44,905 nt of DNA from Candidatus Zapsychrus exili (lineage in GTDB: Bacteria; Omnitrophota; Gorgyraeia; Zapsychrales; Zapsychraceae), in contig JAVCCJ010000085.1 in NCBI GenBank assembly GCA_030765585.1, forward strand, positions 1-44,905, written 5' to 3'. This document shows positions 5,070-7,775 of the stretch, piece after piece. The stretch's first letter is position 1, and each line of letters starts with the position of its first letter. The notes beneath the pieces are model-generated. The model saw only the letters and a list, made by a program, of their open reading frames with translations, was not told where the DNA came from and searched no databases. The translations under genes were made by a program, and so were the position numbers.

Positions 5070-5516
5070 TTATAAATCTATGTTAATCTTTGTTTTATCC
5101 CCAATCGCAATCCCTAGCTTTTCACAAAGACCTGCATTAACTTCCAATACATAATTTGCTTGGCTTTCTGGCTGATATATTGCGCAATTGTCTGTCTTGC
5201 ATGGCGGAGCATTTTGTTCTATGTGAACAACGACTCCCTCATTGTCTAACCAGATCATATCTAGTGGCAATAATGTATTCTTCATCCAAAATGCGTGTTG
5301 CGCGGCTTGCTTAAATACAAAAAGCATACCAGCGTGTTCAAATAAAACTCCTCTGAACTGAAGTCCACGCTGAAGCTCTTCATCTGTTACTGCAAGTTCT
5401 ACATTAAAACAACTTTCCGCTGAATCTTTAAAACACACTTGATTTTCTAATGTAATACTAGATGCTTTGCACGAGGATACTAAAAGAATAATAATAATTA
5501 AAAATATCTTTTTCAT
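5070..5516 (-). CDS. DUF192 family secreted protein/lipoprotein
   Basis: Lipoprotein-like signal (MKKIFLIIIILLVSSC); RGLQFR...GMLFVF...FWMKNTLLPLDMIWLD...V.EVNAG. Confidence 0.85.
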   Translation of the reverse strand: MKKIFLIIIILLVSSCKASSITLENQVCFKDSAESCFNVELAVTDEELQRGLQFRGVLFEHAGMLFVFKQAAQHAFWMKNTLLPLDMIWLDNEGVVVHIEQNAPPCKTDNCAIYQPESQANYVLEVNAGLCEKLGIAIGDKTKINIDL

Positions 5517-5527
5517 AAGGCCACCAA

Positions 5528-6862
5528 TTAATTGTTGTCGATTTCTGTTAAGTTTAGATAATCCCTAAATACAAGCTCTCCTTCTATTTCTTTGTTAATA
5601 TTTGAAATACGCTTGGCTATAAACGGATGTGTTCTCCAATAGCTAAATTTACGTCTAGGAGCATTCTCTTGTTCTTTTTTTAATTTATCTAAAAACTGAA
5701 TTGCACCTTCTGGATTAAATCCTGCTTTCGTTAAATATTTAACAGCTAACCTGTCAGCCTCAAACTCATCAGCCAAAGAATGCTCAGCAAAAAGAGAGCC
5801 TATCGCAACACCTACACCTTTTGCTACTCTAGAATTCGATTGAGTCGCTGCCGCTACTTGCATTGCCATCGCACCATAAGATCCTTGCAATCGTTTAATG
5901 CCATGCTGTGCAGTTATATGACCTACTTCGTGGGCAATAACGCTTGCGAGCTGATCATCAGTTTCTGCAGCATCTACTGTACCTTTGAATATATAAATAT
6001 ATCCGCCTGGAAGACTAACAGCATTTTTAATATCTTTATCTAAAACTTTAATAAAATATACTACGTTTTTTCTGTCAGAAACCTCTACTATTCGCTTTAA
6101 TATACTTTCTATTCTTTCTCTTATATCAATATCATCAATTACATCGTAATGTTTTTCAATATTCTTAGAAGCAGATAAACCTATTTTTTCTTCTTTTTCT
6201 GTAGCGTACAAAAGTGATTCCTGTTGTTCTGTAGCTAAATTATAACTTGTAGTGCATCCAAATAAATTAAGAATGAAAAACAAACCCAACATCGACACGC
6301 CAAAATCTTTTAACATCTTTCCTAATTTCTGCATTGGAAGACCTATAACATTTGTATAACATCCTTCTATCCGTCGGATAAACACACTTCCAACACCTTC
6401 TATATCAAAACCGCCTGCCTTATCAAAGGGGGGCATCTTTTTGTGATACTTATCTATTTCGCTATCAGTTAAAGCAGACATAAATACTCTTGTCTTTTCG
6501 TAACCTATTGCTTGTTTTCCCGTCTTAGCATCAACTACCGCAACGCCTGTATATACCCATTGAGGGCTTTTGAAAAGAATCTTAAGAATTTTTTTAGCTT
6601 CTTTTAAACTCTTTGGCTTTCCTATTATTTTCTTATTTCCAATATATACAACAGAATCAGCTCCAATGACGACACCATCTTTTAGCTTAGATGCTATTTC
6701 GTTCGCCTTAATTAGAGCATTCTTTTTGACAAGAGCTTGAGGTGTAGTTGTAATTTTTTTTACCTCTTCTGCTTTACTTGACCTTACTTTAAACTTAAGT
6801 CCAAGTAGTTTCAGGAGTTTTTTTCTTTGCGCAGATTTAGAGGCAAGGATGATAGGCTTCAT
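5528..6862 (-). CDS. In-frame fusion: Maf-family nucleotide pyrophosphatase + lipobox/TM segment + M48-family metalloprotease
   Basis: Maf: IILASKSAQRKKLLKLLGLKFKVRSS...VIGADSVVYIGNKKIIGKPKSLKEAKKIL; linker MLGLFFILNLFGCTTSYN; M48: VIAHEVGHITAQHGIKR...LADEFEADRLAVKYLTKAGFNPEG. Confidence 0.85.
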   Translation of the reverse strand: MKPIILASKSAQRKKLLKLLGLKFKVRSSKAEEVKKITTTPQALVKKNALIKANEIASKLKDGVVIGADSVVYIGNKKIIGKPKSLKEAKKILKILFKSPQWVYTGVAVVDAKTGKQAIGYEKTRVFMSALTDSEIDKYHKKMPPFDKAGGFDIEGVGSVFIRRIEGCYTNVIGLPMQKLGKMLKDFGVSMLGLFFILNLFGCTTSYNLATEQQESLLYATEKEEKIGLSASKNIEKHYDVIDDIDIRERIESILKRIVEVSDRKNVVYFIKVLDKDIKNAVSLPGGYIYIFKGTVDAAETDDQLASVIAHEVGHITAQHGIKRLQGSYGAMAMQVAAATQSNSRVAKGVGVAIGSLFAEHSLADEFEADRLAVKYLTKAGFNPEGAIQFLDKLKKEQENAPRRKFSYWRTHPFIAKRISNINKEIEGELVFRDYLNLTEIDNN

Positions 6863-7469: not shown

Positions 7470-7775
7470 CTATCGTAACCACTCATCAATCGGAGGAGCT
7501 TCTAGTTCTCTCTTGCTCATCTCTTGTCTTAAACGAACTATGAATCCGAGCAACTCTTTGAATTTTGTATATTCTTTTGGAGTAAATCCTGCTTTACCAT
7601 GAAAAGCCTCACTTGCTTTTCTTTCTATCATGACGTCGATATATATCTCAATTATCTCATCATCCTTTAATCTTTTTATTTCTTCTTGAGTCGGAATACT
7701 AATTTCATAAATAAAAGCTAAAGCTGGGCCGCAAAACAAAAGAAAAATCGTTAAAAATATAATTACCTTTTTCAT
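7470..7775 (-). CDS. Small secreted hypothetical protein
   Basis: 101 aa with signal peptide; strong RBS GAGGAGG upstream. Confidence 0.65.
   Translation of the reverse strand: MKKVIIFLTIFLLFCGPALAFIYEISIPTQEEIKRLKDDEIIEIYIDVMIERKASEAFHGKAGFTPKEYTKFKELLGFIVRLRQEMSKRELEAPPIDEWLR

Follow-up and report, generated by a model that had tools for sequence, protein, structure and literature searches.

The cytochrome b/c1 precursor FbcH of Bradyrhizobium comes from one gene, and signal peptidase I cuts it at an internal signal into two proteins, which are two subunits of one membrane complex. Human ASMTL has a predicted methyltransferase as the partner of its Maf domain, with no export signal between the two domains. 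In ASMTL, Maf is the N-terminal part of the two-domain protein (PMC3899018), and the same work defined the Maf signature S-R-E-K-D-K. Zinc ligands and an HPx4R plug of the M48 type have been described in BepA (PMC7950410). Here, we analyzed a window of 44,905 nucleotides (the whole stretch of contig JAVCCJ010000085.1 from Candidatus Zapsychrus exili), in which Maf is the N-terminal part of a two-domain protein, as it is in ASMTL. The partner, however, is an M48 peptidase, and a predicted lipoprotein signal takes the place between the domains where ASMTL has no export signal. This gene also differs from fbcH in that its signal is of the lipoprotein type and in that it encodes a soluble enzyme without a known tie to its partner. 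By analogy, we suggest that the closest match to how the Maf-M48 gene would work is a precursor that signal peptidase cleaves, as in FbcH. A sequence-only reading of this DNA had named no characterized precedent for a Maf-M48 fusion, and there was likewise none in the papers that we searched.

The features of the locus are as follows, with coordinates in the window.

5528..6862, minus strand: Maf-M48 fusion open reading frame (ORF), 444 amino acids, with an ATG start and a stop-free frame
6305..6856, minus strand: Maf domain, residues 3-186 (Pfam PF02545, E 8e-51, 172.8 bits against a cut-off of 27)
6314..6316, minus strand: internal ATG, Met183, proposed second start, with a weak Shine-Dalgarno sequence (-3.0 kcal/mol)
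6287..6316, minus strand: Maf C-terminal tail MLKDFGVSML, residues 183-192, where the unfused Mafs of relatives naturally end; in the fusion it doubles as the n-region and opening part of the predicted signal peptide
6257..6301, minus strand: hydrophobic stretch of the predicted signal peptide, about residues 188-202
6254..6256, minus strand: lipobox Cys203 (LFG-C), present in 68/68 aligned fusions
5588..6118, minus strand: M48 peptidase domain, residues 249-425 (PF01435, E 1.4e-26, 93.9 bits; PDB 3c37, E 2.9e-28)
5918..5932, minus strand: HEVGH zinc motif, residues 311-315, with His, Glu, and His unchanging in 68 fusions
5765..5767, minus strand: Glu366, invariant, third zinc ligand by comparison with BepA E201 (PMC7950410)
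5609..5629, minus strand: HPFIAKR, the HPx4R active-site plug motif, residues 412-418, with H412, P413, and R418 invariant (motif from PMC7950410)
6866..7423, minus strand: pyrE, the upstream neighbor (TIGR00336), conserved upstream in the order
5070..5516, minus strand: exported DUF192 (COG1430) lipoprotein-like gene, the downstream neighbor (PF02643; synteny)

The sequence-only reading had described an uninterrupted 444-residue frame with a complete-looking Maf and an M48 peptidase (HEVGH), a lipoprotein-like junction, and internal ATGs at 6316 and 6292. The ORF check and Pfam confirmed the frame and both domains, and both ATGs were found. The interdomain sequence is MLKDFGVSMLGLFFILNLFGC-TTSYN, its Cys codon occupies 6256-6254, and this junction is conserved in the fusions. 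The Maf part also matched TIGR00172 (NCBIfam) with 162 bits against a cut-off of 117. AlphaFold predicted both domains with confidence (mean pLDDT 86); the junction, which includes a 9-residue helix, was of low confidence. Foldseek matched the first domain to Maf structures (B. subtilis Maf, PDB 1ex2, target TM-score 0.92-0.94) and the second to the M48 structures 3c37 and BepA.

The Maf signature (S10, R13, E33, K52, D69, and K82) is complete in the window; E33 is present in 67/68 fusions and the other five residues in 68/68. On the M48 side, H311, E312, H315, E366, H412, P413, and R418 are all invariant in the 68 fusions. Judged by these residues, both enzymes, Maf and M48, look active. The YhdE-subfamily motif R12-T71-Q153 is absent, and the window has Q12, S70, and E155, where a local motif served to match the third position. 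Across the fusion family, position 12 is mostly Q or A and never R or aromatic, position 70 is mostly T, and the position taken as the equivalent of YhdE Gln153 is Q or E (Q in 38/68, E in the window). The fused Maf thus shares the full domain, fold, and signature of YhdE, YceF, and B. subtilis Maf (1ex2) but has mixed subfamily residues and a C terminus that leads straight into the predicted signal peptide. The M48 part has the HExxH motif, third-ligand Glu, and HPx4R plug of the single-domain M48 lipoproteins (E. coli LoiP and YcaL and Geobacter 3c37), and nearly all of its unfused relatives have, like those proteins, a lipobox ahead of the protease. In contrast to them, it has an in-frame Maf ahead and no starting Met of its own. 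It missed the cut-off for BepA, an M48 plus TPR protein (NF052400, 90 bits against 570), and the ORF stops after the M48 domain; it also missed the cut-off for LoiP (NF052399, 55.5 bits against 365) and is LoiP-like in layout only. By profile matches and signature residues, the fused ORF contains one member each of the Maf and M48 families.

Our survey covered 81 genomes of the order and a sample of 384 from the class, and fusions were counted from match tables. An unbroken Maf-M48 frame was present in 88 of the 384 class genomes and in 5 order genomes outside that sample, which makes at least 93. These genomes are uncultured, fall into 12 family groups, and all belong to the class of the source genome; one of them is a single-contig genome of 1.97 Mb (G134). 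A scan of genome contigs found Maf and M48 only as distant separate proteins. The phylum-wide sample gave no extra fusion outside the class, with the matches listed coming almost wholly from that class. Another 36 loci have maf next to, but separate from, the gene for the M48 lipoprotein; frequently the two overlap by ATGA and differ in frame.

Such a difference in frame at the same place in many relatives would be consistent with a missed stop, a frameshift, or a chimeric contig behind the fusion, and the sequence-only reading had held that close relatives with separate genes and a frame difference here would count against a fusion. Relatives of that kind do exist. However, the same continuous frame is found in at least 93 genomes, and the fusion therefore stands despite them. 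Its retention in 88 class genomes and 5 order genomes excludes chance or sequencing error; with 12 family groups and the single-contig genome included, the artifact explanation is refuted for the family, and we give it a negligible probability. The Maf-M48 fusion is a real and conserved arrangement that is not unique to the source genome.

One locus (L062, in G076) has an in-frame TAG between Maf and M48 with the frame unchanged, which looks like a recent separation. Another (L067, in G033) has a TAA right after Maf, followed by an in-frame M48 start, and the contig is cut at its end; a further M48-DUF192 piece (L106) lies on another contig of that genome.

Inspection of the junction showed where the two forms meet. 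Where the genes are unfused, the Mafs of relatives all stop at, or very close to, a single point (type ...MLKKFGVSIL-stop), and separate M48 genes have their own start and, in nearly all cases, their own lipoprotein signal. In two loci from one genus (L083 and L085, genus g9), the signal of the separate M48 ends in SAHA or SYA without a lipobox Cys, unlike other separate M48s. In the fusions, Maf retains its full length, its tail is contiguous with a hydrophobic stretch and then GC in all, and the basic tail occupies the place of a signal-peptide n-region. Ahead of this hydrophobic stretch, most fusions have a net charge between +2 and +4 (median, +3; 68 fusions), and the stretch itself has a median of 16 residues and a mean Kyte-Doolittle value of 2.1. 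Among the aligned fusions, Cys203 is unchanging (68/68), and Gly202 precedes it in 66/68. The features of a lipoprotein, a lipobox Cys behind a basic n-region and a hydrophobic h-region, are thus present, at residues 183-203 of the ORF and not at the N terminus of the translated protein. A strict PROSITE-like lipobox pattern matched 49/68 junctions; the window copy fails it with an Asn at position -4.

In E. coli, the residue after the lipobox Cys decides between inner- and outer-membrane sorting (the +2 rule). This residue is Thr in the window and Ser, Ala, or Thr in nearly all 68 fusions, and Asp was never seen among them. Since Asp is absent, outer-membrane sorting is predicted under the E. 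coli rule, and not the inner-membrane-tethered protease that the sequence-only reading had considered.

We propose that the fusion is probably a precursor with an internal lipoprotein signal, from which a cut by signal peptidase II before Cys203 would release the M48 lipoprotein. Maf would be translated first and fold in the cytosol. With translation still under way, its basic tail (MLKK type), the hydrophobic segment, and LFGC would together serve as a lipoprotein signal peptide inside the chain and direct the downstream M48 part to export via Sec. Lgt would lipidate Cys203, and signal peptidase II would then cleave ahead of it. Two products would result: a Maf that faces the cytosol and keeps a short tail in the membrane, and a separate lipoprotein, M48, of the envelope quality-control type (YcaL/LoiP/BepA-like), the latter probably located in the outer membrane. 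We infer export, lipidation, cleavage, and the final locations from conservation only.

The same junction could instead be a membrane anchor in an uncleaved bifunctional protein, with Maf covalently tied to a periplasmic M48. The single frame without a conserved internal start would suit such a protein, as would the positive charges before the hydrophobic segment, which fit a Maf-in, M48-out topology. However, the hydrophobic part is short (median, 16), and an uncleaved anchor has no need of an absolutely conserved lipobox Cys. The strictness of its conservation matches that of the catalytic residues in Maf and M48, which one would not expect of a simple linker and which favors the precursor. 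Likewise, the basic n-region (+3) and short h-region (16 residues) are as in cleavable signals and not as in stable anchors, and since nearly all separate M48s have their own lipoprotein signal, lipidation appears to be the usual fate of M48. The repeated conversion between fused and separate forms also implies that covalent linkage of Maf and M48 is dispensable. We therefore consider an uncleaved protein improbable.

Several further points argue for the precursor. Fused and separate genes replace one another at the point where Maf naturally ends, no internal start is conserved, and the predicted structure, with two confident domains and a low-confidence junction, is consistent with it. The sole Maf copy in the source genome is the fused one; the second M48 encoded elsewhere is distant (35% identity). 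Against the precursor, it would be unusual for a signal peptide to follow a folded domain of 180 residues, and the papers that we searched include none on such an arrangement in lipoproteins. The window copy also misses the strict lipobox pattern that 49/68 junctions meet and has an in-frame ATG with a weak AGGA at 6316. Two of the start-site comparisons given below count against it as well, namely the suitable ATGs of 55/69 fusions and the like energies once GTG and TTG are allowed.

The sequence-only reading had offered, as one possibility, that a second start at the Met183 ATG (6316) or at 6292 makes a separate M48 lipoprotein beside the full-length fusion; we also considered such a lipoprotein in place of the fusion. 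In the window copy, AGGA lies just 5' of the in-frame ATG at 6316, and the peptide from this ATG resembles a lipoprotein signal. The AGGA is, however, only 3 bases from the ATG, and the energy at 6316 (-3.0 kcal/mol) is equaled or beaten by 30% of the internal ATGs in the window. The exact 16S 3' end pattern was not found in the source genome, so a standard anti-Shine-Dalgarno sequence was assumed for these energies. Its use is supported by the mean energies in the window, -3.7 for first ATGs versus -1.7 for internal ATGs.

A second start in regular use would be expected to keep its start codon and ribosome site. The tail Met (Met183) was present in 56/73 fused Mafs, Maf-DUF192 fusions included, but in 37/40 unfused Mafs, which do not start there. 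The Shine-Dalgarno energy at this Met was -2.21 kcal/mol in fused and -1.90 kcal/mol in unfused forms (P = 0.98). Counting every ATG able to begin a signal peptide, we found some suitable ATG in 55/69 fusions and a good Shine-Dalgarno sequence with an ATG in 8/69; a suitable ATG was missing in 14/69, and any ATG, GTG, or TTG in range was missing in 2/69. With a stricter range, 14/68 were without a suitable ATG and 4/68 without any start codon. An ATG with an energy of -4.5 kcal/mol or lower was present in 12% of the fused genes versus 39% of the separate M48 genes (Fisher P = 0.002), although the best energies were alike between the two groups once GTG and TTG were allowed (P = 0.87). The frequency of Met183, its Shine-Dalgarno energies, and the value at 6316 thus leave internal initiation at 6316 or 6292 unsupported as a general mechanism, and we regard it as unlikely. 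It is not a conserved mechanism but could occur in some species, the source included.

We also compared the neighborhoods of the fused and separate forms. In the order of the source genome, the gene order pyrE-maf-M48-DUF192 is kept in both forms alike; most fusions elsewhere in the class had no pyrE- or DUF192-type neighbors in the flanking stretches examined. Also conserved upstream of pyrE throughout the order is a gene for a 101-amino-acid protein (7470-7775, minus strand) that likely has a signal peptide and that matched nothing in Pfam. In one genus of another family (genus g41, family f7), Maf is joined in frame to DUF192 in 4/7 genomes (L093, L094, L096, and L099). This junction lies at the same point as that of Maf-M48 and runs through a signal-peptide-like segment. 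A full-length M48 relative was not found in the genomes of this genus, several of which are 51-70% complete, and there were weak hits only.

On the gene tree, starred branches force at least 6 changes between the fused and the separate state of Maf-M48, and parsimony gives 13; either an ancestral fusion with fissions or repeated fusion would fit. This was a quick tree made from the Maf and M48 sequences, and the class-level sample is enriched for fusions. The Maf-DUF192 fusions and these 6 or more Maf-M48 changes suggest that Maf's end readily becomes the beginning of a signal peptide. We tentatively extend this to a more general idea, which we hold with less confidence than the precursor itself. 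In this class, the Maf C terminus may have been recruited repeatedly as an n-region, forming a self-removing signal-peptide linker to the next exported protein (M48 or DUF192), whose release from Maf would fall to signal peptidase. This would be a general route from one start codon to a cytosolic and an envelope protein.

With this fusion, it can be tested simply in E. coli whether a signal inside a protein chain is accepted by Sec, Lgt, and signal peptidase II. If our model is true, gene callers and signal-peptide predictors based on the N terminus would miss such signals, and exported proteins of this kind would be annotated as cytosolic fusions. It would also mean that a lipoprotein signal peptide can function after a folded cytosolic domain and that this arrangement has been kept across a large lineage.
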